A DNA stretch of 64,000 bases, from NCBI GenBank assembly GCA_012845835.1, contig JABAKD010000018.1, positions 4,796,116 to 4,860,115 of the forward strand, in the 5' to 3' direction. The notes beneath the pieces were generated by a model, which was given only the letters and a program-made list of their open reading frames with translations, searched no databases and was not told the origin of the DNA. The DNA comes from Undaria pinnatifida (Eukaryota > Sar > Phaeophyceae > Laminariales > Alariaceae). The position numbers and the translations under genes are program-made. Below, piece after piece: positions 2,010 to 63,734 of the stretch (positions within the stretch are counted from its first letter, which is position 1; each line of letters begins with the position of its first letter).

Positions 2010-5000
2010 CAATGTTTCCAGTCTATCGTTTCGAACGATGGAGTTGCAATATCGTTTGGACGACGTTTCCGATATATCGTTTAGGGCGATGTCTCCCGAT
2101 ATCGTTTAGGGCCATATTTCCAATAATGTCGTTAAAGACGGTGCATTCAGTGCCCTTTAGGATAATGTTTCCACTATCATTTAGAGCAATGCTTCCAAAG
2201 TCGTTAAGAACACTGCCTCCAATATCGTGTAGGATTGCACTTCCCACATATATACTTGGACGATGCTTCCAACACCGTTTAAGGACAATCTTTGCAATAT
2301 TATCGTTTGTGGGACAATGTTTCCAGCCACTTTTTTGTTTTTTCCACCCCGAGATATATATATATATATATATTGTTTTAGGACGATGTTTCAAAAAGAG
2401 CCATCCCTCTATAGGGCGTGAGTTAGCAACACTCCATGAAAAAGCAACGAGCAGTGGGACTGAACCCTATTCGCGATATAAATTAAAGGCAATAACCGGG
2501 GGGGGGGGGAAAGAATGGACGACACACCTGTGACTACGGCTTGTCCAGAAGCTGGAAAGTAGAAGTGTGAAAATAAAAATAAAAAACAAAAAGTGCGGTT
2601 CGGGTTGCAGTTTTTTGGTTCATGTTTTTTTTTTCTGACCTCCTCAAGTGTGTGTGGCATCCTCGGATAGTACGATAATGATACCCGTATAGCATATGGA
2701 TATGAACACGAGCGTATATTATATTAGGTTCAGGTCCAGCGCATACAACGCTGGTCGGGTTTTTGCACGAGCGAATGCCTTCGAAGGTATCGTCTCTGGT
2801 GAGGTATTTAGTGAGTTCCTTGTGAGAGGAGCCCAGGTTCTTCTTGTGCACCCCACGCGGGCGGGATGGCTCAAATACGGTTTAGGACGGCGTATTTTCC
2901 AGTATCGATTAGGACTGTGCTTGCAACATTGGTTAAGACGATTTTTTTTGTTTTGGACCCAAAAGGTCTTCACCATCGTTTAGGACAATGTTTCCCATAT
3001 CGTTCAGGACAACGTTTCCAATATCGTTTAGGACCATGTTTTCAACATCGTTTAGGACAACCAAGGTCGGGTACTATGATGCTTCCGATACCTTTCAGGA
3101 CGGTGCTTCCAATAATATCGCGTGACACGATGATTCCAATATCGTGTAGGACAATGTTTCAAATATCGTTCAGGACGATGTTTCCGATATCGTTCAGGAT
3201 ATCGTTTAGGGCAAAGCTTCTAATATCGTATATAGGACGATGTTTCCGATATCGTTTGAGACTGTGTTTCCAATATCGTTTAAGGGCCCATGCTTCAGTA
3301 CGGTCTAGGACTATGCTTCCAATGTCGTTGAAGACAACGTTCGCACTATGGTTAAGGACGACGTTTCTGATAATTGTTTTTGGGATGATTCCTAAACGAT
3401 ATTAGAAACAACGTCCTAAACGTCAACACAAACATCTTCGCAAGCGATATGGGGACATCGCTCTAAATTGTATTGGAAGGCGTCGTCCTCAATGACATTG
3501 GAAACATCGCGTCCTCAACAATATCGTAAACGTCGTCCTCAAGGGCATTGAAAACATGGTCCTTAAATATATTGGAAACGTCGTCCTGAGCGATATATTT
3601 GAAACATCGTCCTGGACGATGTTGGAAACAACGTCGAAAACAATATTGGAACCATCGTCCGGAACGATATTGGAAACACTCTATCCTACACACTGTACTG
3701 GAAGCACCGTAAAAAAACAAGATAGGAAACATCGTCCGGTATTGGAAATGCTGTGCTAAACGATATAGGCAACACCGACCTAAACAATATTGGAACCATT
3801 GTCCAAACGCCGTTGGGAGAAACACTCTCCTAAACTGTATTGGAAGCATTGTTTTGAAACGATATTGGAAACACCGTCGGGCATCGGAAATATCGTGCTA
3901 AACAGTATCGGCGACCTCGTCCTAAACGACATTGCATTGAAAGCGCTGTCCTCAACGACATTGGGAGCATTGTCCTAAAATACGTTGGAAACGTCGTCCC
4001 GAACGATATCGGAAACCTCACCCTACACCGGAAGTAGTGTCTTAACCAGCGCCCTCAGCGATACGAAACACCGTCCTAAACGATATGAAAGCATTGTCCT
4101 GAAAAAAGATATTTTTCGTCCTAAAGGACATCTTGCAAACGTCGTCCTAAATGATATCGCAAATATCTTCCTAAACGATACATCAAACATCGTCCAAAAA
4201 ATGAAGCTGGAAACCTTGTCCAGTAAACGATATTAGAAACATTATCCTAAGCGATACCGGAAACATCGCGCCCTTGACGATGTTGGAAACAGCGTCCTAA
4301 ATGATAGATCAAACATCGTCCTAAACCATGTTGGAAACGTCGTCCTAAACGATATAGGAAACATTGACCTCAACGATATTGGCAGCATCATCTTCACAAT
4401 ATTGGCAGCATCGTCCTAAGCGATATTGAAATATCGTCTAAATGACATTGGCAACATCGCCCTAAACGATATTGACATATCGTCCAAATGGTTTTGTAAA
4501 TATCGTCCTAAAACGATATAATAATAAACATCGTCCTGGACGATATTATTATTGTAAACTTCATCTTTAACAACATTCTAAACATCGTCCTAAACCATAT
4601 TGGAAACGTCGTCTTAAATGATACATGAGGCATCGTCCAGAACGGCATTGGAAACACAATCGTAAACAATATTGCCAACATCGCCCAACACGATGCTGGA
4701 ATCATGGTCCTACACGATTTGGAAACATCTTTGAAAACGAGGTCGGAAGCACCGTCCTGAACGATTTTGGAAACCTTGTCCTGGTTGATACAGGAAACAT
4801 CGCCCTAACGATTTGGAAAGTTCCTCTAAAGCGCATTGGACACATCGTCGTACACGAAATTGAAAACCTTGTCCCGAACTGTAGGAAACATCGCCTTAAG
4901 CAATGTTGGAACCACACGATATCAGAAACATGGCCCTAAACGATATGGAAACATCGGCGCAATCGACTATGGTTGGCCTAAACGATATTGGAAACATGGT

Positions 5001-5235
5001 GCCAACCGACTGTTGAAACATCATCCCAAACGATATCGTAAACATCGGGCAAAGTTACCAGGTCCTTTTGGACGATCTTTCCAATAGCGTTTAGGACAAT
5101 ATTTCCCATATCGTATATCAATACTAGTAAGATTATGATTCCACCATCGTCTAGGACGATGCTTCCACAACGACATCGTTTAGGACGGTCTTTCCAACGA
5201 CATCGTTTATGACGTTGTTTCCAACATATCGCTTA
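2010..5235. repeat. Degenerate 24-bp minisatellite with two orientation flips
   Basis: The recurring core is TATCGTTTAGGACGATG plus a short TTTCCAA link, with a 24-bp period. Forward orientation occupies about 2010-2390 and 2875-3385. The reverse orientation (TCGTCCTAAACGATAT core) occupies about 3393-5055, and forward resumes at 5065-5235. 2400-2870 is an interruption containing repeat F and a poly-T/A-rich stretch. Units vary by roughly 15-30%. Because 24 is divisible by three, several frames stay open with 8-residue periodic translations; these look like by-products, with no conserved start or codon bias. Confidence 0.9.
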
Positions 5236-13624: not shown

Positions 13625-13812
13625 GGGGGCGCACCGATTCATTGTCGGTGTGCTCCCCCAATAGAGGAGAGAGCTCCCTAACAGCACTCGAGAAAAAAAA
13701 CGAAATGGGTCATCCCGAGGAACAACCTCGTTGCATATGCAGGGGCGCACAACCATACTACACCTGTATCTGCCCTCTCACACGACAAACCTGACATTCG
13801 GGTCTATAGGCG

Positions 13813-14073
13813 AGTCGCTCTACGGTAGCCCTCCCTTACGTTTCCTTGTTTGAACGAAATCGCCGGTTTCAAAACCAGCTCCCTGTCGTACCTCCTGAAA
13901 TACGATGTCCCTCGACACCCCGACGTCGTCGATCGATAGACCTTTGCATACAAGAAAATAAGTGGACACTTTTTTTTTTTTCAATAGTAGTATCCTTCCT
14001 TGTGTCGAGCAGCCATTCAACGTTTTCGTTAAATAATATTGCTGGTTTGTTGGGGGGGGCTATCGTAGAATCG
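13813..14073 (+). mobile_element. MITE-E copy (family reference)
   Basis: The family has TIRs near CTACGGTAGCCCCC / GGGGGCTATCGTAGAATCG. Conserved interior: GAAATCGCCGGTTTCAAAAC, CAGCTCCCGGCCGTATCTCC, GACGTCATCGATCGATAG, GTATCCTTCCT and TCGAGCAGCCATGAAACG. Copies are 220-290 bp and non-coding. This copy is 261 bp. Confidence 0.8.
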
Positions 14074-14278
14074 GTGAGGTTGACATTCTTTGCGTTGGCG
14101 GAGGGAGAAGGGGATCGAGTTTTGTATTCTTTCTCGTTAGACAGCAAGGGCCTAGGTTACACACTTTTTTTTTTTTCTTTTTTCAATGTTAGGCTCTAAC
14201 TTTCGTTATTATTGTCTTTGCGTTTCTTTTGCGAACGCACGGGCTGATTCCGTGTATTACACAAGCATAACACACAAC

Positions 14279-15935: not shown

Positions 15936-16250
15936 ATTTTACTACTATCAACAGCTGAACAGCAGTAGTAGTAGTATTACCATACGTGCCATTCGGCAGC
16001 GTGCAGCGCGTAGATGCATGGATGGATGTTACGATGAAGGTATACCGCTTTGACTGAAACGTTATATGAACGATGGGGGTTAGCTAAGCCACAACCCTCG
16101 GAAGATCACATTCTTGTTTCTTTTTGCGATGTTTTGCGTTCTTGAAAAATACCCTGCTACCTACTGTTGGCCATGGCATTGCTCGCCGAACCTAGCCACT
16201 CTTTCTTTTTTTTTCTTCTATCCAAAAAATCAGTTTTTGGGGAGAGTGGC

Positions 16251-17163
16251 ATAGTCTAGTCTATATATTATAAAAAATGAAAATACACTCCAGCTGGCTG
16301 TGAGATCGAATATTTTGTCGAAACTCATCTTTGCAAGCTGTGTGTGATACTCCGATCGCGCGTATTACGGGTTGTGTGTCCTCATTAAGGATATAGGTCG
16401 GCGACTCCCCTCGCAACTACAGTGTAGCTATCAGGGTCAACAGGGTGATTTTAATCAGTCTGTGCGCGGAAACTATAAAACCCGTTTCTGAGGGGGACAA
16501 ATCTGACAGCTGTGGAGGGAAATGTATCCTTTTATCAAGTGAATCTTTTAAGTCGAATAACCGGTGAGGGGGGGGGCGGAGTTTTGAAGGACGTGGGGGC
16601 CTGGTTTTGATCAAAAGCGAGCGGGTTTTGAGGGGGGGGGGGGGGGGGGAGGGGGGGGCAATTTGTTCATGTAAGTTATAATCCTTTCAAGGGGATAAAT
16701 CTGACGGTTTTGGCACCAGTTTATTATTGGGGGGGGGGGGGGGGGGGTTGGGGCGGGGGTGGGGCGTGTGGGGCAGCTCAATATGTGCGTGGAAACTATA
16801 CATTATTTTGAGGGGAATAAATGTGCTGGTTTTGGAAATAATGCATCAGTTTATCATGTATATCCGGGGGTAAGTCGTACAATCAGTATGTAAAGAGAGG
16901 GTGGAGTGTTCGAGGGGGTGGGGGCGGGATGGGTTGGGGGAGGGGGGGGGGGGGGGAGGTGGGGGGTGGGCGGGGGGGGGGGGGGGGGGGGAGGGGGCGG
17001 GGGGGGGCGGGGGGGGGGGGGAGGGGGGAAGAAGGGTTTTAGGTGACGGGTTTGTTATACGTGTGGTGCTAGGTCTAGGCGATGGTGCGGGTAATGGGGA
17101 AGAAGGGGGCGTTCGGGGCGGGGGGGGGGGGGGAAGCAGCGGCATGGATGGCTCTCGAAAGAT
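16251..17163 (+). repeat. Family B G-rich repeat, truncated by the gap
   Basis: The head has the shared phrase GCTGTGAGATCGAATATTTT, TCGAAACTCATCTTTGCAAG and ATTAAGGATATAGGTCGGCG. Next come a middle block (GCGCGGAAACTATAAAACCC, AGTCGAATAACCGG), then long G runs separated by short unique phrases (TAGGTCTAGGCGATGG). The G runs could form G-quadruplexes on the + strand. Confidence 0.75.
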
Positions 17164-18794: not shown

Positions 18795-19016
18795 ACCTCC
18801 CCCCCCACACACCGGCGGTTGTCTTTAGCGAACGTTTCATGGCTGCTAGACACGAGGATGTGAGCATGTTTTCTTGTCTGCAAAAGACTACCGAACGATA
18901 ACGTCGGCGTCGCAAGAGGGGCACTGTCTTTCAGGAGATACGACCGGGAGCTGGTTAGAAAAACCGGAGATTTCGTTAAAGAAAAGTTGGGGGAAGCTAC
19001 CTACTGTAGAACGATT
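18795..19016 (-). mobile_element. MITE-E copy
   Basis: Reverse copy with AACGTTTCATGGCTGCTAG, TTCAGGAGATACGACCGGGA and right end CTACTGTAGAACGATTC. The left TIR is eroded into a C run. Confidence 0.75.
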
Positions 19017-19103
19017 CAAATTTCAGAAACAGGACGCGAGCACTGAAAATAACAACGCGTTTTATTAGTTTGAATGTGAACACGAACACTTTGGAATACT
19101 CTC

Positions 19104-19667: not shown

Positions 19668-19683
19668 GTAAGAATTTCCTGAG

Positions 19684-19923
19684 GCGTTCTACGGTAGTCC
19701 CCCCAACTGTTCTCCAACGAAATTGCCGGTTTCAAAACCAGCTTCCTATCATATCTCCTGAAGTACGATGTCCCTCGACACCCCAACGTCATCGACCGAT
19801 AGCCCTTTGCACCCAAGAAAGTATATGGATACTTTGTTTTCAATAGTATCCTTCCTTGTATCGAGCAGCCATGAAACGTTAGATAAAGAAAATAGCTGGT
19901 TTTTGGGGGGGCTCTCGTTGAAT
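19684..19923 (+). mobile_element. MITE-E copy just inside intron 1
   Basis: Starts about 16 bp after the exon 1 donor. GTTCTACGGTAGTCCCCCC to GGGGGGGCTCTCGTTGAATG. Confidence 0.8.
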
Positions 19924-20299
19924 GGGTCTCATGAGAAACGGAATGTTGGATATGTGCTGTTTCATGCATGTGTGGTGGCGTGTTCCGATTGTTGCGTGTA
20001 TTTCACCGCATTGTCCTGAGAACGTAGCATACGGCACTAGGGAATGCCAACGAGTCCGGGTGTGGTTCTTAAGTGTAAGATTTGTGTTTATCTTCCGAAT
20101 CGGGTTGTTGTTTTTCTTTTTCTCTGAGACGTGGGCGGGGGTTTCCGCTGGCCTAACCTGCTACCGACGGCAATGACGGTATCCTCAAGTTTTCACCTAT
20201 ATCGCAATTACTACTTGTTCATAGCGCGAAATTACTCCGTGTAATACTTTTATTACTTCCTCCCCTGGCCCCCTTGTCGAGGCGCATTTACCGGCTTTG

Positions 20300-20656
20300 T
20301 CCCACAAATCGTACCAGATAAAGTACCAAATTTATTTCACTTGATAGTGGCTTTTGAGCTGTTTTTTTGTGTATTTGTGCTTTTTTTTTGGCAAATCGCG
20401 AGAGAGCGTCGACCCACCCTAACCCTAACCCTTACCCTAACCCTAACCCTAACCCTAACCCTAGCCACAACCGTAACCCTAACCGTAACCGTAACCGTAA
20501 CCGTAACCGTAACCGTAACCCCAACCCTAACCCAGGCTAGGGCTCCGACCCGAGCGTTGCTTCGCCGCGCGTTTTGGAAAAACTGATGAAAAAAATGTGC
20601 GGACCACCTCAAACACCGAAATATATTTGGTACTTTATCTGGCATGATTTGTGGGG
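20300..20656. mobile_element. Small TIR element carrying telomere-like repeats
   Basis: 20300-20338 and the reverse complement of 20618-20656 match at 35 of 39 positions (shared CCACAAATC and CCAGATAAAGTACCAAAT). Between them lies a 120-bp block of telomere-type hexamers. The element splits repeat B2, whose intact counterpart B1 shows the uninterrupted sequence. A clear target-site duplication is not visible. It has no coding capacity. Confidence 0.75.
20415..20537. repeat. Interstitial telomere-like array, CCCTAA then CCGTAA variant
   Basis: About eight CCCTAA units (TTAGGG on the other strand), a short degenerate stretch, then seven consecutive CCGTAA variant units, closing with two CCCTAA-like units. 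It is internal to a TIR element, so not a chromosome end. Confidence 0.9.
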
Positions 20657-20859
20657 TGAGAACATCGCAAAGGCTACTGCCCTCGTCCGGGGCCTACTAT
20701 ACGGTCTCGGATGACCGAGTTCCCCAAATGGTCCACGATCATTCAAACGTCTCATCGTAATTATGCGGCAGACAATATAAATCATACCAGGTACCTCGTA
20801 ATAACTTCTTCCCCTCACCGTCGAAAGAAAAAGAGATGGGCGGGCGGGAGAAACTACGG

Positions 20860-21243
20860 CAATTCCCGGTAGATCGGCGTGCAATCACCAGACCGCAACG
20901 TCTTCTCGATTACGACGTTGGATGGTCAGCTGAGGTCTCGCGCCTTTTGTGTGAGACTCTTGTGTTTCGCGAGCTCTGAAAGTTAGCTCTGAGAATAATT
21001 ACCTCATGGGGCTTTTCTCCATTCATTGTCGTTTGCCTAGTACTTGGATTCACATCATCCATCCCGTGAATCCAACGACCTGCCTGAACCCCTCAGGCTT
21101 TCGGACGTTTGATTTGATTGTCTTCTCGGAGCTATACAATAGTCATCATCACCGTCTATCCTAGAATTTCAACTCTTCAATCCTTCAGGCCAACGCAATA
21201 ACGAACTATTCATCGTCCTGTTCCGGAATCTACTAAATAATCC
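20860..21243 (-). repeat. A2 copy of split direct repeat
   Basis: About 380 bp, nearly collinear with 32155-32568 (shared ATTCCCGGTAGATC, GACGTTGGATGGTCAGCTGA, CGCGAGCTCTGAAAGTTAGC, GAATCTACTAAATAATCC). Lies directly between B1 and B2. Confidence 0.75.
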
Positions 21244-21249
21244 TCCACT

Positions 21250-21507
21250 TTGTGTTTTATCTTTCGAATTGGGTCGTTGTTTTTCTTTTTCTCTGAGACG
21301 TGGGAGGGAGTTTCCGCTGGCGTAACCTGCTACGGACGGCACTGACGGTATCCACAATTTTTCACCTCTATCGCTATTACTCCTTGTTCATGGCGCGATT
21401 ACTCCGTGTAATACTTTCATTACTCCCTTCCCTGGCCCCCTCGTCTGGGGCCTTCTAATCGGTCTCGGATGACCGAGTTCCCCAAATGGTCCCCGATCAT
21501 TCACACT
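21250..21507 (-). repeat. B1 copy of split direct repeat
   Basis: Uninterrupted counterpart of B2. It adjoins the 3' end of the recombinase pseudogene, and serves as the empty-site reference for the insertion in B2. Confidence 0.7.
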
Positions 21508-21529
21508 CCTCCAAATCCGAGGTCGTCCG

Positions 21530-22689
21530 CTACCGTTGCGGTTTGCCCCAGACCGCATCCTGGCCTGGTTGTCTCAGAGAACCCATTCCTTCTTTCGCAA
21601 GTTTTCTTGACACCTGACTCGCGTCCTCCGTGTTGTTGCGTGTGTATATCTTGTACGCGTCGGACTTCCATCGTCCTTCTCTCTGGATCTCTCGCTCCGA
21701 CACTACCCCTCCCCCTGCCGCGAGTGCTGAGCCCCCCCCAATTCGAAGAGAATGCCATGCGAATTTCCCCGGCTTTCCCTCGGACTCCAAAACGATATAT
21801 CTAAGCGCATTTATCGCCTAGCCGTATTGCCAAGCGACGACCTTTTCCTTACACCGGTACGAGGACCGAGGTGTCTTCGGGAAGCATGGGGCGCCACACG
21901 ACAACAATTCCACCATAAGAGCGACAACGGCTCCGTCCGATCGCAGTCTTAAACGTGCTCCGCTGACCTCCTCACGTGTTCTACCACTATGCTTCCTACC
22001 CCGGCTTGGTCTCCTTTGTGCCTGCGGAACTGGAACTCTACCCTATCTGCCTGCCGCCATTTTAAACAGCCCAACAGGATTTTGCCGTCGTAAAACGCTA
22101 CGTCGGCCCATGTTAAACCGGGGGTTGTGTGCACCGCGCCCCCGTCCCGAACGACCACTTCGTCCGAACGGGCATCGAATTAATAAAAATTGCTCATATC
22201 TAGACATAGCCATAACACGCGACCCCCTTGTCCTCGTGCGGATATGGTATTTTCCTCTTGGAGAAACATACCCCACGACACCGGACAAAGCACCCTCCGA
22301 GGCGTGCCCGTGCCAGCGTGTGCCCGACTGACTCCTTGCAGCGCACGTTTGACGAGCGGCGATTGCGTTGGAACCTCAAACCCGACAGCTGTCACATGAA
22401 AGGATTGCACAGCAGCTCGTTTACTTGAATTTGTCCCGGCCTGGTTGCCTTGCGATGGACTACACCAGCCGGCAAACTCGACTAAGGCAAGCTCATTGAT
22501 AACCTCGCCCGCATCCGACCTAAGATACTGGCCCCTTCCCACTAGCCTGTTAATGTTCGTCCATGATGCGAGACCTGACGCGTAAGTGCGCTCAGACAAT
22601 CGCGCAACGGAGTTTCGGACGTACTGGAGGTCAATGTTCCGGAACAAAGCACGTCCCCCGCTGGCCTCAGCACCTGTTCCTGCCAACAA
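21530..22689 (-). pseudogene. DIRS/Crypton-type tyrosine recombinase, broken
   Basis: Read on the minus strand, the first 170 codons give the SAM-like core-binding domain (SERTYASGLASWTNI; later LALVEFAGWCSP and LVKRALQGVSRAHAG). An in-frame TAA at 22180-22182 interrupts it. The same frame then continues with A-R-S-D-E (first catalytic Arg, 22168-22170), GGAVHTTPGLTWADVAFYDG and RRHKGDQAG. It stops at 21949-21951 and shifts frame at least twice. The C-terminal part has HSLRIGG (His 21752-21754, Arg 21743-21745), REGRWKSDAYKIYTRNN with the nucleophile Tyr at 21644-21646, and a short tail. All catalytic positions survive although the frame is broken, so decay looks recent. Such recombinases integrate circular DNA of DIRS-like retrotransposons or Crypton transposons. 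Flanking split direct repeats favour the former; no reverse transcriptase was found nearby. Confidence 0.82.
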
Positions 22690-22829
22690 CTACATAGGGG
22701 CGCAGCCCCTGCGCCGGCGTTCGTTACATACACCTGGCCTCGTGTCCATATGAGATTCTGTATAACATGTCTCGGTACATATATACTATATGGACGACTG
22801 GACGGTACCTGATCGGGTGAATATATGCA

Positions 22830-23887
22830 CTCAACAGTGTTCACACATTAATAGTGTGTGTATCGTGCTCGGGTTTCCCAGGTATATACACCAGTATCTG
22901 CTTATATAGACTATGCCGCTTGTATATATACCGGTATCTGCATATATATGTATATGATTAATACGCGCGATCGGAGGATTACGCATAATGTTGCGAACAT
23001 CAGTGTCCGACCAAATCCGTGATTTTAATATTATATGTGATTTAAGCATCTTGAAAACCCCTCTTCCCCCCCCCCCCCCCCCCTTCATTCTTTCTTTCTT
23101 TCTTTTTCTTCTTTTTTACTCCTCGCTTTCTCTTGCTTAAACGCCCCTACTATCGAAATCCGCCAGAGTAATAAACACTTCCACGCCCTGGATATCACCT
23201 CGTTATCGTTTCAGAGCCGTCCATGCCGCTGCTGCAATTCCCACCAACCCCCGCCCCCAACGCCCCCTCCTTCCCCACCACCCGCACCATCGCCTAGACC
23301 TAGCACCACACGTATAGCAAACCCCTACATCTATGCGACCTAAAGCCCTTCCCCCCCCCGCCCCCGGCCCCCCCCGCCACATTCCCCGCCCCCCCCCCCA
23401 AGAAATATTTATAGTTTCCACGCACAAATTGACCTGCCCCACCCGTCCCCTCCCCGCCCCCCCCCCCCCTCCCCCCCCCCTCCCCCCCCCCTCCCCCCCC
23501 CCCTCCCCCCCCCTCCCCCCCCCCTCCCCCCCCCCTTTTGATCAAAATCAGGCCCCCACGTCCTTAAAAACTCCGCACTCCCCTCACCGGATATTCGACT
23601 TACAGGATTCACTTTATAAACTGATGCTTTTCCTTCCACAGCTGTCAGATTTTGTCCCCCTCAGAAACGGGTTTTATAGTTTCCGCGCACAGACTGACTA
23701 ACATCACCCTGTTGACCCTGATAGCTACACCGTAGTTGCAAGGGGAGTCGCCGACCTATATCCTTAATGAGGGCACACAACTCGTAATACGCGCGATTGG
23801 AGTATCACACACAGCTTGCAAAGATGAGTTTCGACAAAATCTTCGATCTCACAGCTGGAGTGTATTTTTATTTTTATATTATATGTA
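22830..23887 (-). repeat. Family B repeat (C-rich on + strand)
   Basis: Reverse copy. An internal degenerate head lies at 22950-23060 (TAATACGCGCGATCGG), C runs at 23068-23083 and 23346-23536, and the terminal head ends near 23880 (TTCGATCTCACAGCTGGAGT). Confidence 0.75.
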
Positions 23888-24569
23888 TATATAGACTATA
23901 TCGCTGGTATGCACATCTACTATCAGCCCGTCTTCCCTGTTGCCGTGATATTGCATGCTGTATGATATATCGAACACAGTTGTTCGTGGTGTCTGCTGCT
24001 GCGCGTATTATCATCCTGCTGCGCGTATTACCATCCTGTATCTGCTGTACGTGTGCTAATATGATATCGGGCACCTCACGGGTTTTTGCAATTTTTTGGC
24101 GGCGTCTGTTGATTGGCTGTACGTGTGTCCGTTCTCCAAAATATTTCAAATATTTCAATTTCCTGGTGGGCTGCAGCAAACTTTTCAAATGTGTGCCCAC
24201 TCGATCGACAAATGTTACGCTGGCGAATGCAACGCGCCACCCGTGTAGTCGTACAAGAGACGAACTGCCGTTCGTAGCGTGTATTGCATGTGCCTCCGCT
24301 GCACGTTCAGCATTTCCGCCTTGTAGAACTGGGATGTGATTGGGGTAAGCAGTGCCCCGACAGTAAAATGAATGCTGTTTCCTATTATCAACGGCCACGG
24401 CCTGCTCTCGGAATGTTTGGCGAAAAACGTTTCGACTGACCCATCTTTCTGTGGACCTACGCCCTTTTAAACCCTCTTCGTCAGAAACATTTGGCCCCAA
24501 ACCCAAATTGTTATACCCCTCCCGTGGGATGGCACTGTTGAGTCGCCCGGGATGTTTTTCTGATCTACA
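23888..24569. other. No feature recognised
   Basis: The minus strand is open for 210 codons at 23874-24506, overlapping the family B head, with no motif I can place. Not called as a gene. Confidence 0.3.
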
Positions 24570-25040
24570 CCCCCGTTAACGTGCTACCCCGTTGTGACCC
24601 TATGTATGCTGTAATCTGGATACGCCCGCCCTCACTTTTCCGTCCTTGTTGTGAAGTAGTATTCAGATAGACACACCTTTTGAAACACACTAAAATGCGA
24701 TGTTTCGAACCAATTCAAACTACCTACACATCGTAGCATTGCCCGTCGGACTTGATCCCAGTCGGAACAAGTCCGCCCTCACCCGTCCGTCCTTGGTTGT
24801 GTCTACTGTAGTATGGTTCAGATTAACACCTCTGTGAACACACTCCATTTCCCTATAGACTGCTGTGGTATCGCCCGATGATAGTCTCCCTACGTGGTGG
24901 ATTTCGTGGGACTCAAGTCTTGCGGGTTTAACTTTCTCCATAAGTCTATACCTTCACACGTCCGTCCTTGATTGTGACATATTGTTCAAACTCCCCTCTC
25001 CTTGAACATGTGCCGTCTCGATTCCCTTTTTACTTTGTTG
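24570..25040. repeat. Three degenerate direct repeats of about 150-190 bp spacing
   Basis: The phrase GCCCTCAC…CCGTCCTT…GTTGTG followed by TTCAGAT and GAACACAC recurs at 24630, 24775 and, more diverged, 24955. Confidence 0.45.
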
Positions 25041-25589
25041 ACGACCGAGTTGACACTATTGCCACTCATCAAAGTGTCGTCAGACTTGCCGGAGAATGGT
25101 ATGAATGATAAGTAGTCCATCCACGCTCCGGTTATTGGTTGGATATATATATATATATATTCCCCAGCGCGATCCGCTCGTCGTTCGGTGTTTTGCTAGC
25201 GACACCTTGCCCTCACGAACTTACACGACGTACGAACTAACACCATAAATAAAAGCATGTATGCTTCTAGTTGATCCAGCTTGGGTTATGTGGCCCTGAT
25301 GTCTTAATTTGGTACTAGACACTATGTAGCGCCAGGCCCCGCCCTTGTGCGATCGAATGGCATGACATGCGTGTCTGTATGTAATATGTCCCAGGTAATC
25401 TGCGTATAGTTTGCTCGCTCGCATAGTTTTGGTACGTGCGGTGACAAAACCATCTTATGTACCTGTTCAACCAGGCGTATATGTAAATGTACGTCCAGTA
25501 CACCCCAATTGTTCCCGTGGTCGTCTCCTGGTCTGGTGGTAGTTACGTGGCGTTTGTCGTCATCACGTGTTGTTGCCATTCTTGAACGA
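25041..25589. other. No feature recognised; short (TA)n at 25143-25161
   Basis: No repeat relationship or coding signal identified besides the dinucleotide run. Confidence 0.3.
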
Positions 25590-26005
25590 CCGCATCTTTT
25601 ATATAAGCAAATAGACCTGCCCCACCCGTCCCCTCCCCCCCCTCCCCCCCTCCCAAAATCAGGCCCCCACGTCCTTAAAAACTCCGCCCTCCCCTCACCG
25701 GTTATTCGACTTACAGGATTCACTTTATTAACTGATGCATTTCCTTCCACAGCTGTCAGATTTTGCCCCCCTCAGAAACGGGTTTTATAGTTTCCGCGCA
25801 CAGGCTGCCTAACATCACCCTGTTGACCCTGATAGCTACACTGTAGTTGCAAGGGGAGTCGCCGACCTATATCCTTAATGAGGACACACAACCCGTAATG
25901 CGCGCGATCGGAGTATCACACACAGCTTGCAAAGATGAGTTTCGACAAAATATTCGATCTCACAGCTGGAGTGTATTTTAATTTTTATAATATTACGCAT
26001 CGCAT
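25590..26005 (-). repeat. Family B repeat, partial
   Basis: Reverse copy with a much shorter C-rich section (25620-25655) followed by the complete head. Confidence 0.75.
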
Positions 26006-26559
26006 GCTGTATCTCAGGTACGTACAGCAATTCTGTGGACAATGTTCTGGCATTCGTGAGGCAGTACTGCATAGTTCCTGTTCTATGTATGTATATACAT
26101 GCCCGGTCCTCACTACGTCGTGCGAAGAGTTGTGTATCTCCTGACTGGTATGACCTATATCGTGCCCTTGCCATTCACTGTTCGATGTGTTTCACCCTGA
26201 CACGCAAAGTCTCCTCCTTAGGATTAACATGACGTCTTCGCGCGAACAGAAACCGGGGATGAGTACAAGCGTATGCACATGACATTGTATATTCCCGTAC
26301 GTACATGAATACTTCTCGCTTATCTGGTACACGCCCATCCTTGGATCTTGTCCTTACTGCGCAGACAAATAGTATGTACCATATTCGAGTCGACTCTTCC
26401 GATCGCACCCCATACCAGGCGCATACATAATCCGTAGCGTAGTGGCATATCAATCGCACATAGTCTAGACTATTCAGTTGAACCGTGTCACATTCATGAA
26501 TCACTGTATCCGTGTAGCTCACCACGACGACAGCACACATACGTACTTTGGTCCCCCTC

Positions 26560-26690
26560 ACCAAAACGTATTTTTTTCAAGTTCCACGCATAGATAGGTT
26601 GAACAACGTCACCCTGTTGACCCTGGTACAAGCTACTTCAGAATCTAAGGGAACTCGCCGACCTATATCCTTCATTGGAACACACACTCA
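26560..26690 (-). repeat. Family B fragment
   Basis: Carries only TCACCCTGTTGACCCTGGTA and CGCCGACCTATATCCTTCAT from the head. A MITE-E copy directly follows. Confidence 0.6.
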
Positions 26691-26696
26691 GACAGA

Positions 26697-26986
26697 GTTG
26701 TTCTACGGTAGCCCCCCCCCCCAAGCTTTTCTTTCACGAAATCGCTGGTTTTGAAACCAGCTCTCGGCCGTATCTCCTGAAGAAATACGATGCCCCTTCC
26801 TTGCCGTCCCGACGTCATCTATCGATAGATAGTCCTTCGAAAACATGAAAATGTGCGTGCGGATTATTATTGTTGTTATTTTTTTTCGTAGCATCCTTCC
26901 TCGTGACGACCAGCCATGAACCGTTCGTCAAAGAAAATCGACGTTTTTTTTTTTTTTTTTTTGGGGGGGGGGCTATCGTAGAATCA
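26697..26986 (+). mobile_element. MITE-E copy
   Basis: 290 bp. Expanded T and G runs (26944-26972) near the right TIR (GGGGGCTATCGTAGAATC). Confidence 0.8.
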
Positions 26987-28189
26987 GTCCCCAGCAATAC
27001 GCGCGATCCGAGCATCACACACAACAACAGCTTGCGAGTATGAGTATTTGACGAATCTGCGACCCTTTTGATGCCTCCTCCCCGGCGCAATCGCCTGTTG
27101 TAGTGCTGGTCTGGGTGTTGCTTATGTCCCCATTATCAACCTACCTGTCAGTGCTGTCACCGTTCTTTTGACAGATTGTCTGGTGGTTTGTACTCCGTGC
27201 TCATCGTTCCTGTGAAGCCCGAACATATTAATGAAATAGAGGAGAGTGGGATACCGCTTCTCCAAATATTGTAAAACTATTTGAGGTAAATAAACATACA
27301 GACTAATCTAGTCTAGTCTAAAACCAGTCGTCATATATATAATAAACTGAAAAATATTTCCTCGGCAACCTGCGATGTTTTTTGTTTTTTTTTCAATAAT
27401 AGACTATAATAGACTAGATATTTTCGTAATCTTTTCATGGACAACGAAAATTTAAAAACCCAAAAAAGAGGGGGGAGTGCCCCGATCGTGTACGAGGTAC
27501 GATGTGTGTCATCTAATCAGCCAAGGTCATGGGAGACACGTTGTCTGTCTCGTTTATCATCTGCCCCCCCAGACCCGCATGCTCTTTTCGAGCGAGGTCA
27601 ACAACCGGTGTGTATAGCGCTCCAATTGTTACGCTCTAAGTGTCTGTACTACCCCCCATTTCAAGACCCGACGCAGTCGTGTCGTCATCTCATACTTGGA
27701 CTTGCCATAATTACTTTCTCTGCCGCTCTCAGACCTCCGTTTGTAGCGGCGAAGTATTTGTATTCAGACCGACACTGTGTGAAAGCCGTCTCCTCCAATG
27801 TCTTGATCTCTTTTCCATAAAGTGTTTGCTCACTTAGTAACACATACGTCGTATGATCCGCATACTCCGCCTAACACCACGCATGGTATCCTTCTTATAC
27901 CGGGCACATAAGAATACCTCCGCGTCTTATTATCTGGATGCCAAATTCGACTGCACCATATTTCGCATGTGCGCGTGTTACTCGTTCCTGTCCACTTCTC
28001 CTTGTCGGCCACTTACTCGAACTACGATGTATATCCTGGGATGATATGATCCGATACCGTTTCCGTGATGCAGCAATGTGCCGTATCGTCATGACCCTGC
28101 CAGGTACGTGTTGCGCAAGTGTACCCCTCCCATACCTAGCACGTACTACCCACGGTGTATGTAAATATTCTTGTGTGAAGCTCCGATAT
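26987..28189. other. No gene recognised
   Basis: 27300-27420 holds several AGACTATA/TAGTCTAG motifs. No open frame shows a motif or splice support. Confidence 0.3.
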
Positions 28190-29010
28190 ATATGTAGCGG
28201 GATATAGACTATAGACTAGACCACATATATCCACACGTATAACAAACCTCTCACCTAACCCCCCCCCCCGCCAACCCCCACCCCCCCCCCCGCCCCACCC
28301 CCCCCCGCCCCCACCCCCCACCTCGCCAACCCCCCCACCCCATCCCACCCCCACAGCCTCGAACACTCCGCCCTCTCTCTACTCACTGATTGTACGACTT
28401 ACCCCCGGATATACGTGATAAACTGATGCATTATTTCCAAAACCGTCACATTTATCCCCTCAAAAAAACGTATAGTTCCACGCACAGATTGAGCTGCCCC
28501 ACCCGCTCCACCCCCGCCCCAACCCCCCCGCCCCATAAAATAAACTGGTGCATTTTTGTTCATTTTGTTTCCCAAAACCGTCAGATATATTCCCTTAAAG
28601 GATTTATAGCTCTCACGCACAAATTGCCCGCCTGCCCGCCCCCCCCCCCCCCCTCCAACCCCGCTCGCTTTTGATCAAACCCAGGCCCCTACGTCCTTCA
28701 AACCTCCGCCCCCCCCCTCACCGGTTATTCGACTTACAGGATTCAATTGATGAACGGATACATTTCCCTCCACAGCTGTCAGATTTTGTCCCGGGTTTTA
28801 TAGTTTCCGCGCACAGGCAGACTAACATCACCCTGTTGACCCTGATAGCTACACTGTAGTTGTAATGGGGAGTCGCCGACCTATATCCTTAATGAGGACA
28901 CACAACCAGTAATACGCGCGATCGGAGTATCACACACAGCTTGCAAAGATGAGTTTCGACGAAATCTTCGATCTCACAGCTGGAGTGTATTTTCATTTTT
29001 TATAATATAT
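28190..29010 (-). repeat. Family B repeat
   Basis: Reverse copy preceded by ATAGACTATAGACTAG. C runs at 28259-28350 and 28637-28653; complete head at 28725-29005. Confidence 0.75.
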
Positions 29011-29037
29011 ATTTCTCCCTCTAGTGCTCAATGGCGG

Positions 29038-29243
29038 AGACAGTGCATGGCCACATCACCTCGCATGTTGTATTTGGCAATACGTTTCTCTTTCATATAA
29101 TTACCGATGTCAAAAAATAATGGTAACTATATGATGGTGGTGACAAACAGTGCATGACCACATCACCTCGCCTGTTGTATTTGGCAATAATACGTACCTC
29201 TTTCTTAATATTAGCGATTTCAGAAAATAATGGTAACTACAAA
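29038..29243. repeat. Tandem duplication, two units of about 103 bp
   Basis: Both units share CAGTGCATG, CCACATCACCTCGC, TGTTGTATTTGGCAATA and AAAATAATGGTAACTA. Confidence 0.8.
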
Positions 29244-29399
29244 TATTGTATAAAATAATCTAGCTTTCGTTCCATGTACAACAACAAATTATGAAGATTT
29301 AACACGTTGTTTACTACACCTAAACACTGGGTTGCATACTGCATCTAACATCAAACCTTCTAGAATAGTAAACATTACCAGGCAGATGATATAAAGGGA

Positions 29400-30850
29400 T
29401 GTCTTATTGCTTCAATCGTCAGGTTTGTCCACTTTAAGGATTTGTAGTTTCCGCGCACATATTGAAATGTCCCGCCCCCCGCCCCCCCCCTCCCCTCCCC
29501 CTCCCCCGATCCCTCTTGTTCAAAACCCCCCCACCCCTTCCCCCCCCCCCCCTTCCCCGATCCCTCCCCCCCCCCCCCCCCCTTTCCGCCTAGTTTGTCC
29601 GAACGCCCTACTCACAATCGAAAACGGCCAGAGTAATAAACACCTATACGCAGTTGATATGACGTCATTATCTCTCTGATCATCCATGACGTAGTTTTCA
29701 TTCTTTCCCCCCACCCCCCTCAACCCCCCTCCAACGCCCCCTCTTTTCCAACCATCCGCACGATCGCCTAGACCTAGCACCACGCGTATAAAAAGCCCCT
29801 ACATATCTTTGATCTCACAGCTGGAGTGTATTGTAATATTATTTGTGACCTAAACCTCCAAAAAATTCTTCCCCCCCCCCCCCCCCCCACTTCTCGCTCT
29901 CCCTTGCTCAAACGCCCCACCTAATATCGAAACCCGCCAGATTAATAAACACTTCGCGCACTGGATATCACCTCATCATCTTTCTAGAGCCATCCATGCC
30001 GCTGCTTCCCCCCCCCCCCCCGCCCCGAACGCCCCCTTCTTCCCCACCACCCGTACCATCGCCTAGACCTAGCACCACACGTATAACAAACCCCTCACCT
30101 ACAACCCTTCCCCCCCCCCCCCCTCCCCCCCCCCCCCCCCCCCGCCCCCACCTCCCCAACCCCCCCACCCCATCCCAACCCCACCCCCGCGAACACTCCG
30201 CCCTCTCTCTACTCACTGATTGTACGACTTACCCCCGGATATACAGGATAAACTGATGCATTCTTTCCAAAACCGTCCCATTTATCCCCTCAAAAAAACG
30301 TATAGTTCCACGCACAGATTGAGCTGCCCCATACGCCCCACCCCCGCCCCAACCCCCCCGTCCGCGTAAAATAAACTGGTGCATTTTTGTTCATTTTGTT
30401 TCCCAAAACCGTCAGATTTATCCCCTTAAAGGATTTATAGCTTCCACGCACAAACTGCCCGCCCGTCCGCCCGCCCCCCCCCTCCAACCCCGCTCGCTTT
30501 TGATCAAAGCCAGGCCCCCACGTCCTTCAAAACTCCCCCCCCTCCTCACCGGTTATTCGACTTACAGGATTCACTTGATAAACGGATACATTTCCCTCCA
30601 CAGCTGTCAGATTTTGCCCCCCCCAGAAACGGGTTTTATAGTTTCCGCGCACAGACTGACTAACATCACCCTGTTGACTCTGATAGCTACTCTGTAGTTG
30701 CAAGGGGAGTCGATGACCTATATCCTTAATGAGGACACACAACCCGTAATACGCGCGATCGGAGTATCACACACAGCTTGCAAAGATGAGTTTCAACGAA
30801 ATCTTCGATCTCACAGCTGGAGTGTATTTTCATTTTTTATAATATACTAT
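29400..30850 (-). repeat. Family B repeat, long copy
   Basis: Reverse copy with several C-rich blocks and internal repeats of its middle section (CGCACAGATTGAGCTGCCCC). Ends in a complete head that abuts an inverted head. Confidence 0.75.
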
Positions 30851-30995
30851 AACATTATAAAAAATATACTACACTCCATCCAGCTGTGAGATCGAATTTT
30901 TTGTCGAAACTCATATTTGCAAGCTGTGTGTGATACTCCGATCGCGCGTATTACGGGTTGTGTGTCCTCATTAAGGATATAGGTCGGCGACTATA
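30851..30995 (+). repeat. Family B head, inverted against the previous copy
   Basis: Forms a near-perfect inverted repeat with 30725-30840 about a short AT-rich centre near 30850. Only the head is present; the sequence diverges after GTCGGCGACT. Confidence 0.8.
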
Positions 30996-32154
30996 CACAT
31001 ACATGTCACTGTCAGGCACCCTTACCCTTTTCAGCACGTGTTGCTTCTTACGCTTCTGCTTGCAGTATGCCATACATATGGTAAACAACCGAACAGCTTT
31101 TCATGCGTGGTTGTTCCGTCTACTGCGCGATGATCATATATATATGCCATGTGCTGTCGGATTGTATGCGGACATGTACATAGAACTTTGGGATAGGTCT
31201 TCGTATGTACTACACAATGTACATGCATCTGAGCGTGTAATACAGCCCGCGGTGATCTGCGCACACCCATCTTTTGTGCACCTGATGTGTATGTTTTCGC
31301 TCATGGTCAGCCTGCCTATTCTTTGTGATGATACCTTCGTTATCATGAATGAATCTATCGTGTGAATCCCTATTCCTGCGGTCGGTCGCTTCCTACCTTC
31401 TCCGCGGGTTAATCGGTTTCAATACTAATCATGCGTCACCCCGCGGCCCCCTCCACATCTTGTTGTTCTCAGCCCGCTAACCCGATGAGACCTCAACACC
31501 ATCCTTCAGTGGATATTTTTTCACGCTCTTTACGGCCCGGCTGCTTTCTTGCACGCACCTGCTTCATTTCAGCTTAAGCTAAGCTCCTCACGCTCCAAAT
31601 AGGAGAGGTAGGGTGGTCGTGGGATTGGAGACAAAAGAGAAAATTCGCGGATTATCTAATTTCTTGTCAAGACAGGCCGACAGATACGCCAACCAACCAA
31701 CCAAGGGGTAAGAGACAGACGACACAAAAGTGCGCAAACGACCCAAACCTCTTCGCGTGCTGATAACGTTTTCAATTGTTTTTGGCGTTTTTGCGCGGGC
31801 GGCGAGAAAAAACAGCGGGGACAGGAAGCCGCTTGAGCGAGGCATAGGCGCCCCTAACTAACTCAACACAGCTCACGACCTCGACGCAAAGTCGCGCGCG
31901 CGCAAAACCACCACATAACTAAAGAAAAAAACACTAACAGCGCAGTACGTATTACAGGACTCCGCCCAAACTGATATCGATTCCCCTCCCTTTCCCCTCC
32001 ACCACCCTTACCCACCGCAACCCCCCCGAGACCACCTCTCCGAACTCCAACCCTAGGTAGCACAAAGAAAAACCTAGCTTATTTCTTGACGCTTCGCGCA
32101 CCCACCCACAGAAAGCCCGGGACTCCAGATAGATGGCCAGAACGTCGGACGGAG
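30996..32154. other. No gene recognised
   Basis: The inner flank of A1, where gag of a split-direct-repeat element might be expected. Open segments on both strands have no recognisable motif. Confidence 0.3.
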
Positions 32155-32568
32155 AAGAGAAACCACGGCGATTCCCGGTAGATCAATCACCAGACTGTAA
32201 CGTCTCCTCGATTGCGACGTTGGATGGTCAGCTGAGGTCTAGCGCCCTTTGCGGGAGACTCCTGTGCTTCGCGAGCTCTGAAAGTTAGCTCCGGGAATAA
32301 TGATCTCATGGGGCTTTTCTCCGTTCACTGTCGTTTGCACAGTACCTGGACTCACATAATCCATTCCGTGAATCCGACGACCTGCCTGAACCTCCCAGGC
32401 TTACGGGCGTTTGGTTTGATTTGATTGCCTTCTCGGAGGTATACAACAGTTGGTATCGTCACCTGTCCTGGATTTTCAACTCGTCAATCCTTCAGGCCAA
32501 CACAAACAACGAATTATTTATCGTTCTGTCCCAGAATCTACTAAATAATCCTTCACGTCCCGAAAGTT
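32155..32568 (-). repeat. A1 copy of split direct repeat
   Basis: Single A-type copy 11 kb from A2 in the same orientation, without a B-type neighbour, as expected for the left end of a split-direct-repeat element read on the minus strand. The match ends sharply near GAATCTACTAAATAATCC at 32565. Confidence 0.7.
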
Positions 32569-32906: not shown

Positions 32907-33192
32907 ATTTCAACGGTATCATAGCACCCGTTGTGTTGCTAACAATAGTAGGTTTCAATACAGTACACAATCAATACCAACACTTGGCGACACACACGTA
33001 GTTATGCCCAAGCCACAGCTAGCTTGCCACACCGATGCAGGAATTCTCAGATCCAAGCTATGGTAGGGGGGTGGGTCGCTTTTACGGTCTCGTTTTTTTA
33101 ATCGGGGTCAGAGCTACTGTCTCTCGCGAGCAGACCTCCCCGACATCGTTACAACTTTGAGCTGACGCGTGCTAAGCAAGGTGTAGAGGAGC

Positions 33193-33458
33193 CGTTCTAC
33201 GGTAGCCCCTGCTAACTTTTCTTCAGCCAAAATCGCCGGTTTCGAAACCAGCTCCCGGCCGTATCTCCTGAAACAATGTGTCCCGTGCCACCGCGACGTC
33301 ATCGTTCGATAGATAGTCCGTCGCAAACAAGAAAACATGTATGTGAAGAAGATGTTTTTTTCGTATCCCCCTTCCTTTGTGTCGCGAGCAGCCATGGAAG
33401 TTTCGTTAACGAGCATCGCTTCTTTTGGGGGGGGGAGGAGCTATCATCGTAGAATCGG
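33193..33458 (+). mobile_element. MITE-E copy
   Basis: 266 bp. GTTCTACGGTAGCCCC to GCTATCATCGTAGAATCGG with a 3-bp duplication in the right TIR. Confidence 0.8.
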
Positions 33459-33754
33459 TCAGAGGTACAAGTACAACACTTTATTTTTCTTCAGAGGTTC
33501 CTCACTTGAAGATCTCTGTTTCGGAGACAAAAAACGATAAAGTGCGTACCCGATGGACAATGAACAGTTAGCAATCCCATGACCTAGGTATGCAACGTAC
33601 CATTCTTTCCTAGAAAGGACAAAGCATAAAATTCGGACGTTTTTTGGGTTAAAACGGAGGGCTAATAATGAGGGTTAATAAGGAGAGCCCCGTCATCACA
33701 GAAAGAAGACGCTTTCAGACAAAAAACGGTATACCTCTGTCGTAGAACGAACGC
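33459..33754 (-). mobile_element. MITE-A copy, left TIR replaced
   Basis: Begins directly at the end of the MITE-E copy. Contains CCCATGACCTAGGTATG and a duplicated GGGTTAA block (33647-33685). Confidence 0.7.
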
Positions 33755-45794: not shown

Positions 45795-46800
45795 CGATAT
45801 ATTATAAAAATTAAAATACACCAGCTGTGAGATCGAATATTTTGTCGAAACTCATCTTTGCAAGCTGTGTGTGATACTCCGATCGCGCGTATTACGGGTT
45901 GTGTGTCCTCATTAAGGATATAGGTCGGCGACTCCCCTTGCAACTACAGTGTAGCTATCAGGGTCAACAGGGTGATGTTATGCAGTCTGTGCGCGGAAAC
46001 TATAAAACCCGTTTTTGAGGGGGACAAAATCTGACAGCTGTGGAAGGAAATGCATCAGTTTATCAAGTGAATACTGTAAGTCGAATAACCGGTGAGGGGA
46101 GGGCGGAGTTTTTAAGGACATGGGGGCCTGATTTTGATCAAAAGGGGGGCGGGAGGGGGGGAGGGGGGGGAGGGGACGGGTGGGGCAGGTCAATTTGTGC
46201 GTGGAAACTATGAATCCTTCTTGTGGGGGAGGGGGGGGAAATGTGTGTGTGGGGGTCGGGGGGCGGGTGGGGAGGGCTTTTGGTTGCATAGATGTAGGGG
46301 TTTGCTACACGCGTGGTGCTAAGTCTAGGCGATGGTGTGGGTGGTGGGGAAGGAGGGGGCGTTAGGGGCGGGGGTGGGTGGGAATTTCAGCAGCGGCATG
46401 GACGGCTCTAAAACGATGACGAGGCGATATCCAGGGCGCGGACGTGTTTATTACTCTGGCGGATTTTGATATTAGGTGGGGCGTTCAAGCAAGAGAAAGC
46501 GTGAAAAAAAAAAGAGGGGGGGGGAGGGGGGGGGGGGGGAGGGTTTTCAAGAGGTTTAGGTCACATATAATACCAAAATACACTCCAGCTATGAGAGCAA
46601 GGATTTGGTCGACACTGATCTTCGCAACATTGTGTGTAATCCTCCGATCGCGCGTATTAATCATATATGTAGGGGCTTGCTATACGCGCGGTGCTGGGTC
46701 TAGGCGATCGGGCGGGGTGTGGGGAAGGAGGGGTCGTTGGAGGGGGGGAGGGGGGATGAATGAAGGCTACGTCATGGATGGCTAGGAAGATAACGACGTG
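45795..46800 (+). repeat. Family B repeat in the last intron
   Basis: The clearest copy, about 1 kb: a complete head at 45795-45975, G-rich blocks at 46140-46190 and 46225-46280, and a second degenerate head at 46560-46670 followed by another TAGGTCTAGGCGA block. Confidence 0.8.
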
Positions 46801-47205
46801 ATATCAATTGCTTATGATATCACCCAAGCTTAAGACAGCAAAATAGCAGGGAGGCTGTCACACGCGCGAGTGACTCCGGACCACTGCAAAAAAAGACCCT
46901 AAAAGGGAGATCCCCCCCTCCCCTGTAGTAGCATTAGTCATACGCTTTTAATGACATCTACCTAACCCTAGCCGCAGCCTTACTCCTAGCCCCAACATTA
47001 ACCCTTTACTGAATACAATACATACTCTCATAATTCAAGGCATCAATTAGTTGCCATGAGCCAGGGAGACGACAGTTGTGTGTGTACCACTTTGGTATTT
47101 TGCATGGTGCCATTTTAAGTTGTCCGTGCGCGCCTCCATGTTGAAAAACGAAAAACAAAACGGGAGTGTACCTTCTTTTCTCGTATTCGAGACTATAGTC
47201 TAGTC
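46801..47205. other. No feature recognised
   Basis: Includes a repeat D end at 46863 and a short CTAACCCTAGCC stretch at 46964 that is too irregular to call telomeric. Confidence 0.3.
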
Positions 47206-47424: not shown

Positions 47425-47672
47425 GACTGATTCTTCGATACCCCCCCCCAAAACCAGCGGTTTTCTCTATAGAACGTTTCATGGCTGCTCCAGACGACAA
47501 AGGCCGCTACTAAAAAATAGTCTTCACATGCCTTCTTGTTTCCAAAGGACTATCGAACGATGACGTCGGTGTGGCAAGGGGCACCGTATTTCAGGAGATA
47601 CGGCCGGGAGCTGGTTTTAAAACCGGCGATTTCGTTAAAGAAACGTTGGGGAGGCTACCGTAAAACGACTCA
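47425..47672 (-). mobile_element. MITE-E copy
   Basis: Reverse copy from TGATTCTTCGATACCCCC to GAGGCTACCGTAAAACGAC. The interior CAGGAGATACGGCCGGGAGC is intact. Confidence 0.8.
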
Positions 47673-47978
47673 CATAATTCTCGACCAAACCCTCGATCGG
47701 AGTATCACACACAGATTGCACACATTTTTCTGGTTCTCAATAATGAATTCGAGAACTTGTTGACCAAAGCAGCTGAGGCTAGGGGGTCTTTTTGTTGTTG
47801 TTGTTGTTGTTGTTGTCTTTTTCTTGTGCAACTTCGTGATCATCACTCACGCGAGTTGCCCCCCTTTACCTTTTACTACCTTAACCTTTCGTGCTGCTGC
47901 ATTTTGCCCATGTGAATCTGCAATGCAAGGAAGGGTTGGCTTTAAGGTGCACCAACCAAAAGTCGCCTGAAGTGTGTT

Positions 47979-53900: not shown

Positions 53901-54138
53901 AACGGAGAGACGCAAAGCTGCAGAGCGACGCGCAAAGGCCGCGGCAGCGTCATCCACCGTTGGCATCTCTAAGCGGCCGGGGGGAGGGGGAAGGGGGGGG
54001 GGCGGGGAGGGGACTGGGGGAGGGGGGGAGAGGGGAGGGGGGGAGGGGGGAGGGGGAAAGAGAGGAAGGGGGGAGGGGCGGAAGGGGGAGCGTCATGCCC
54101 AAGAGACTGAAGTCTGGGTTTGGCCATCATCGTATTGA
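50941..54138 (+). pseudogene. Non-LTR retrotransposon (LINE) ORF2: endonuclease (partial), RT, C-terminal domain
   Basis: One frame runs 50941-54138 with a single TAA at 53122-53124. Near 51115-51560 is the C-terminal half of an APE-type endonuclease (LLVLMDANARTG, RLDYILTRQ, SDHNLV); its N-terminal half is missing or frameshifted. RT motifs follow: GNYRGISLVAHAGKVLLKVI, CGFRPQRSTVDM, FIDLTKAYDSVDR, GQGLRQGCVLAP and the active site LYADDAGIV at about 53083-53110. After the stop the frame resumes with GLERMM and ACSLFGLTVSEAKTEMMCLE, LLYGCMTWSP and a basic region, ending in a Gly/Arg tail from G-rich DNA. Role: target-primed reverse transcription. 5' truncation plus the stop make it inactive as read. 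Confidence 0.88.
53976..54091 (+). repeat. G-rich low-complexity tail in LINE ORF2
   Basis: GGGGGA-type purine repeat coding for Gly/Arg/Glu. Probably a late expansion near the LINE 3' end. Confidence 0.8.
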
Positions 54139-63330: not shown

Positions 63331-63559
63331 TACAGCTCGTTCTGTGGGCGAGCCCAACGATGGTGTGCGAGTGGCGATGGCTGTCACGGCGTTCGTGCCG
63401 GGTGGCGACGCACCAGGCGACGTGGACGATGAGGTCACACTGACGCTGCCGTCTCAATTAGCCATGATATTCCACGATTCCGAGGTGGTAATGCGGGATC
63501 GTGCGGGCGTCTTGGAGACGGCTGTCAATAACGCTGTTGACCATGGCCCCCGCCGGAAT

Positions 63560-63720: not shown

Positions 63721-63734
63721 CGGTGGAGGGCGGC

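Follow-up and report, generated by a model that had tools for sequence, protein, structure and literature searches.

A 64,000-nucleotide stretch of Undaria pinnatifida DNA (herein the window) carries, on its minus strand, a decayed copy of what is very probably a non-autonomous, Ngaro-like family of tyrosine recombinase (YR) retrotransposons, one that lacks a reverse transcriptase (RT) but has kept its YR; we put the probability of this assignment at roughly 0.86. Five features can be read directly from the nucleotide sequence: the split-repeat architecture, an internal junction that equals the two outer ends joined, a remnant of the RT-RNase H gene common to the copies, the lack of any further RT match in the copies examined, and end sites that recur in complete families of this genome. 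The family has spread to dozens of places, probably using RT borrowed from those intact relatives.

Self-BLAST of the window returns two pairs of direct repeats. Pair B (20081-20278 and 21249-21445; 89.4% identity, E 4e-69) resumes in its outer copy on the far side of an insert of ~400 bp (20680-20753 against 21438-21511, 89%), and pair A joins 20848-21248 with 32157-32556 (84%, E 6e-124). B1 and A2 are in contact at 21249/21248, and this contact maps onto the outer ends of the element, 32556 and 20081; the B1/A2 junction is thus the two outer ends joined, a circle junction of the kind found in PAT and Ngaro elements. As unrelated repeat pairs are not expected to coincide in this manner, the coincidence and the E-values exclude chance repeats. 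The initial annotation had proposed split direct repeats in the order A1-(YR)-B1-A2-B2, all in one orientation, with PAT/Ngaro-type termini that would pass through a circle, and had asked for alignments of A1 with A2 and B1 with B2; the order, the orientation and the circle logic are borne out, and the alignments are the 84% and 89.4% repeats given above. Its ends, 20083 and 32568, are corrected here to about 20081 and 32556.

On the sense (minus) strand the order is A1, interior, broken YR, B1, A2, a linker of ~95 bp and B2. Several later insertions have lengthened this copy to 12.5 kb. The features, in window coordinates and in the sense direction, are as follows.

32157..32556, minus strand: A1, the 5' terminal repeat of the sense strand; its outer end (CAC, 32556) corresponds to the B1/A2 junction.
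30999..32156, minus strand: interior block I3 (30999-31526 plus 32094-32156), collinear beside A in L011, L050 and L060.
31527-32093: insertion of ~567 bp that splits I3.
28207..30998, no strand assigned: later block of C-rich repeat insertions; L009/L050 lack it, with 28206 lying almost directly beside 30999.
25990..28206, minus strand: interior block I2, collinear in L009, L011, L012 and others.
~26692-26989: dispersed repeat nested in I2; L011 is without it.
25606..25989, no strand assigned: later C-rich insertion, a member of repeat family D2, not at the same place in L009.
23898..25605, minus strand: interior block I1, with no recognisable coding function, kept beside YR in L009, L011, L016 and others.
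22907..23897, no strand assigned: later C-rich insertion; L011 lacks it, with 22906 lying almost next to 23898.
22545..22685, minus strand: remnant of the RT-RNase H C terminus (~47 codons), overlapping the start of YR; tblastn match to L054 residues 737-783, E 1.5e-7.
21533..22689, minus strand: YR, broken, supported by the native open copy P0001 (from L016) and by alignments.
21249..21511, minus strand: B1, from its self-match to the outer B.
20848..21248, minus strand: A2, abutting B1, from its self-match to A1.
20754..20847, minus strand: A2-B2 linker, which separates A from B in full copies and solo units alike.
20081..20753, minus strand: B2 (20081-20278 plus about 20688-20753), split by an insert.
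20279..20679, no strand assigned: small transposon inside B2, with a CCCTAA-type array and inverted ends of ~38 bp (92%).

The sequences flanking the B2 insert, CCCTTGTC and CCCTCGTC, resemble an 8 bp target duplication (a near-duplication), and further, related copies of this small transposon are present in L002 and L004. Within the A2-B2 linker, 38 bp match the L053 linker at 82% identity; L053 is one of the RT-bearing relatives described below.

As first annotated, the recombinase lies on the fitting strand and is broken; it sits just upstream of B1, and its stop codons at 22180-22182 and 21949-21951 are accompanied by one frameshift. The residues assigned as R, K, HxxR, W and Y are still legible. 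Neither stop occurs at its column in any of the 11 other aligned copies (L046 being read via its part L052), so both are private to the window and arose after insertion. Pieces of the YR gave no Pfam match, a PHROG match of E 0.24 and nothing useful with phmmer against the PDB; scans of IMG/VR and Rfam returned no relative and no match, respectively. A profile of five YRs retrieved 13 Cre chains among 14 matches (E 0.14-0.39) over the catalytic end, and the intact relative L056 matches PF00589 (E 0.007), results that are suggestive but not strong. P0001, a native open stretch of 325 codons, is 41-54% identical to the intact YRs of RT-bearing families. These families of the same genome supply the closest YRs among those tested, a comparison made up of Undaria sequences rather than named Ngaro or Crypton references.

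Used as a query, P0001 matched 125 places in the genome, including several sets of near-identical intact YRs, and four representatives (L053-L056) proved to be YR retrotransposons. The search for relatives with RT-RNase H between A1 and B1 that the initial annotation recommended was thereby successful. L054 comprises A1 (2020-2297), a Gag-like open reading frame (ORF), a 783-residue RT-RNase H, a 391-residue YR, B1, A2, a linker and B2, and its repeats are 99.6-100% identical. L055 carries ORFs for a Gag-like protein, RT-RNase H and YR, together with a B1/B2 pair at 99.6%; in L056, which also has a Gag-like ORF and a YR, RT-RNase H is spread over two overlapping frames and the repeats have diverged further (94-98%); in L053 the RT-RNase H is shortened and the repeats are 100% identical. 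These relatives look closer to Ngaro than to PAT: Pfam detected no methyltransferase in those ORFs of L053-L056 that were scanned, a weak test in which their RT itself matched only at E 0.0014-0.0065.

All that tblastn with the proteins of L053-L056 recovers from the window family is the final ~47-49 residues of RT-RNase H, which overlap the start of YR. Every one of the 18 YR-bearing elements covering this region has the DNA of the tail, and in 15 of them the translated tail gives a match with E ≤ 0.01 (the exceptions being L044, 0.79; L057, 0.023; and L058, 0.029). Outside the tail, no stretch of the family copies matched Gag, RT or RNase H in tblastn with an E-value under 0.25. As a control, these queries do pick up RT-RNase H from one intact family to another, at 43-63% identity. 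Pfam scans of sense frames likewise gave no RT for the window, for L011 or for L009/L050, in a setting where Pfam barely detects the intact RTs; the absence of RT accordingly rests on tblastn with the intact relatives. The sharing of one tail by 18 of 18 elements indicates that RT was lost before the family spread. As RT-RNase H between A1 and YR is represented by the tail alone, the family is counted among non-autonomous derivatives, not among autonomous Ngaro elements. Two other RT sequences were considered as the missing gene and rejected: that at window 50941-53124 has a strong RVT_1 match and looks LINE-like, and that of L016 is of the same LINE-like type and lies outside A1, in the flank. 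The initial annotation had found no readable RT, as is the case apart from the tail, and had left a choice between a gutted copy and a non-autonomous derivative. The derivative is the alternative that holds, and it holds family-wide.

The genome searches scored the best candidates, and the copy numbers are therefore lower bounds. A B-repeat query gave 43 matches, some to the small insert alone, and 31 B-bearing places, including the window, were examined. YR with A2 beside B1 is present at seven (window, L009, L010, L012, L034, L044 and L046), YR without A2 at another seven (L011, L016, L017, L018, L031, L039 and L040), and deletion derivatives without A2 at two (L032 and L045). Solo A-linker-B units account for another 14, and the last place, L033, holds such a unit plus an extra fragment of A. 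Matches to YR added four places, two with A2 (L059 and L060) and two without (L057 and L058). All four repeats are seen in the window, L009/L050 and L060; in L034 no B2 is seen within ~0.7 kb, and L059 has just 92 bp of A2. The interior blocks 23898-25605, 25990-28206 and 30999-32156 are common to copies and collinear. Candidate places genome-wide number 41 for I1, 46 for I3 and 99 for A, with 40 of each scored. Diverged family copies (73-81% identical), including L057-L059, are crowded into ~10.3-14.4 Mb of C28, perhaps a region of low recombination.

For comparison, 24 YR loci of the 391-residue class were picked by hand from the P0001 matches to represent a young RT-bearing family, F3. The B1-A2-linker-B2 block is present in 20 of the 24 (in one it is cut at 727 of 850 bases, and in another a tandem run follows). 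The exceptions are L064, with B1 alone and the core intact; L065 and L066, with B1-A2 and no linker; and L067, which runs into a gap. L065 and L066 have different flanks, and both end at the inner edge of A2 without linker or B2. The tandem run, at C32:1371413-1374703 beside an F3 YR, consists of five overlapping B-A-linker-B blocks with a spacing of ~618 bp.

The ends of the window family also resemble those of the intact families, both in the B end and in the sequence across the B/A junction (sense strand: window, AATTCGAAAGATAAAACACAAAGTGGAGGATT; L054, AATTCGAAAGATAAACAACAAAGTGGAAGATT). Twenty-one A outer ends were considered; C57, L013 and L015 were set aside because their ends were unaligned, leaving 18. 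TTT directly follows the A outer end in 13 of these 18 copies, compared with a background of 2.4% for any triplet position, and B starts with TTT in 20 of 26 copies (the window being counted from 20081). The simplest reading is that YR crosses over within a three-base AAA/TTT core that is retained at both ends.

The following history would account for this anatomy. A founder would have lost Gag and RT-RNase H, save the last ~47 codons, before amplification, keeping its YR gene and the arrangement A1-interior-YR-B1-A2-linker-B2, with an interior of several kilobases and no recognised coding function. Family RNA would then be reverse-transcribed in trans by the enzymes of complete relatives; the internal B1-A2 block would restore the ends to give a circle; and YR, its own or a relative's, would integrate the circle at the short AAA/TTT core. 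Recombination between A1 and A2 or between B1 and B2, or resolution by YR between two identical junctions, could generate the solo A-B units and the copies that lack A2-B2. Mobilisation in trans is the likeliest mechanism to judge from the anatomy, given that the B-end sites and the AAA core match those of intact families.

Several observations weigh against this account. Trans-mobilisation itself was not observed, and all 12 YR copies compared are broken, none having an uninterrupted full-length frame. The window copy has GTC instead of TTT outside A1. The YR-bearing copies divide evenly into nine of 18 with A2 and nine of 18 without, and loss of A2-B2 is rarer in F3 (at most four of 24) than is loss of A2 in the window family (nine of 18). 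Were A1 and A2 identical when a copy inserted, its pair should be each other's closest relatives; reciprocal best matches were obtained for only one of four pairs (L009, 92.5%) and not for the window (86.5%), L034 (87.4%) or C57 (87.3%). The YR tree leaves the order of L053, L054, L055 and the window family unsettled. Diversity across the 12 YR copies is 0.110, 0.117 and 0.120 at the three codon positions, with no clear constraint, and net divergence between groups shows no constraint either.

Part of this is tempered by the shape of the copy tree, which is close to a star. The window A1/A2 pair is still sister in the four-pair tree (support 0.42), both pairs of an earlier two-pair alignment were sisters, and one of five B1/B2 pairs is sister with low support; with a near-star tree, however, the A1/A2 sister test is weak. 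For the same reason the YR tests are without power and cannot be used to judge selection on YR. Near-equal diversity at the codon positions is what a single burst followed by decay of the copies should produce.

The alternative that survives best, which we nevertheless regard as improbable, is that an RT-discarding lineage multiplied as YR-made DNA circles. In such a Crypton-like reversion to the life of a DNA transposon, the family's own YR would have excised or resolved circles, both A-interior-B and A-linker-B, and inserted these into AAA/TTT sites without RNA, with A-linker-B units as the lineage's own miniature satellites; copies with the order A1-B1-A2-B2 would be tandem integrations of A-linker-B circles at the terminus of a longer element. 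The TTT core at both ends suits this scheme, as does the private nature of the window YR stops, since the reading frame of the YR may still have been intact at the time of insertion. The five-unit A-linker-B run beside an F3 YR (C32:1371413-1374703) also counts in its favour. Against it, intact RT-bearing relatives share the A1-B1-A2-B2 order and the block is retained by 20 of the 24 young F3 copies, which argues that the order was inherited and did not arise from chance tandems. An A-B unit upstream of A1 was seen at none of the nine ends examined (three with just 119-166 bp of flank), and A1 and A2 of L009 are reciprocal best matches. Solo A-linker-B units at 14 of 31 B-bearing places and the absence of A2 from nine of 18 YR-bearing copies would also fit circles made by YR; copies lacking A2-B2 occur in RT-bearing F3 as well, however, and are thus not confined to the RT-less family, though they are rarer in F3.

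Two further explanations are far less probable than the DNA circles. A single ordinary Ngaro or PAT copy gutted in place by nested insertions and deletions would agree with the several later insertions in the window element, but was rejected because corresponding interior blocks recur in further copies and the RT-RNase H remnant is common to 18 of 18 elements, placing the loss of RT before amplification. A Crypton, that is a YR-only DNA transposon, with chance repeats is equally hard to credit: although YR is the sole recognisable enzyme gene and no RT match extends beyond the tail in the copies examined, the end repeats and junction are held in common with RT-bearing families, the RT-RNase H tail overlaps YR, the closest YRs tested come from RT-bearing elements, and chance repeats were already rejected on the E-values and the junction.

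The non-autonomous, YR-keeping family can be set beside known systems. The Ngaro elements described from Cafeteria burkhardae have an A1-[ORFs]-B1A2B2 structure and occur also as solo AB repeats (PMC8547959). The window family is similar in its split direct repeats, the YR beside B1, the solo AB units and the RT-bearing relatives in the same genome; it differs in having no Gag and no RT-RNase H except the C-terminal tail, in an interior without recognised genes and in its A2-B2 linker, which is found in L053 and L054 too. The initial annotation had counted the independent occurrence of A, B and YR against a DIRS-type assignment. Such units exist here, as solo A-linker-B and as YR-B without A2-B2, and they do not speak against it, because solo AB units are reported for Cafeteria Ngaro too (PMC8547959). 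PAT-like DIRS elements have split direct repeats in the same order (PMC4157794), and the window family shares that order; PAT carries a methyltransferase, whereas none was seen in L053-L056 by the weak Pfam test. Among brown algae, Ectocarpus has 15 Ngaro and five PAT-like families (PMC12477816). The family resembles Cryptons in that YR is the sole enzyme gene left, and differs from them in its split direct repeats, its RT-RNase H tail and a YR close to those of RT-bearing families.

Non-autonomous derivatives of long terminal repeat (LTR) retrotransposons, and solo LTRs, have shed their internal genes yet keep terminal repeats and copy number, and recombination between repeats yields the solo units. 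Unlike these derivatives, the window family retains its integrating enzyme, a tyrosine recombinase. Accounts of YR retrotransposons generally deal with autonomous elements, with remnants or with solo repeats, and no description of an RT-less, YR-keeping family of this kind was found in the literature searched, a set that has most subscription journals outside it and whose listings were read in part. An RT-less family living beside intact relatives with matching end sites is a natural experiment for telling functions supplied in trans from those that have to remain in cis. Candidates are Gag, RT and RNase H for the former and the end repeats, perhaps with YR, for the latter; the AAA/TTT core at both ends and the coexistence of copies with and without A2-B2 are direct readouts of circle formation and integration.

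Other repeats are abundant in and around the element. A dispersed C-rich family occurs at window positions 16250-17163, 22951-23884, 25607-25993, 28231-30992 and 45797-46815, with members of 0.4-0.9 kb that contain C-tract minisatellites and, at 30708-30992, a palindromic arrangement; these repeats have inserted repeatedly into and around the element, sometimes near a TATAGACTATA-like sequence. A second dispersed repeat, of ~250 bp, is found at 13812-14078, 18799-19021, 19671-19927, 26695-26989, 33189-33462 and 47425-47681, one copy lying inside I2. Further away, window 2049-5225 is a degenerate tandem array of ~24 bp units (ATCGTTTAGGACAATGTTTCCAAT type), partly inverted. LINE-like RT ORFs occupy 50941-54138 (RVT_1, E 1.3e-26 for 50941-53124), and 57443-58300 and 62621-63763 give weak, sub-cut-off Pfam matches to two kinds of domain from LTR-type retroelements, Pol beta-barrel and aspartyl protease.

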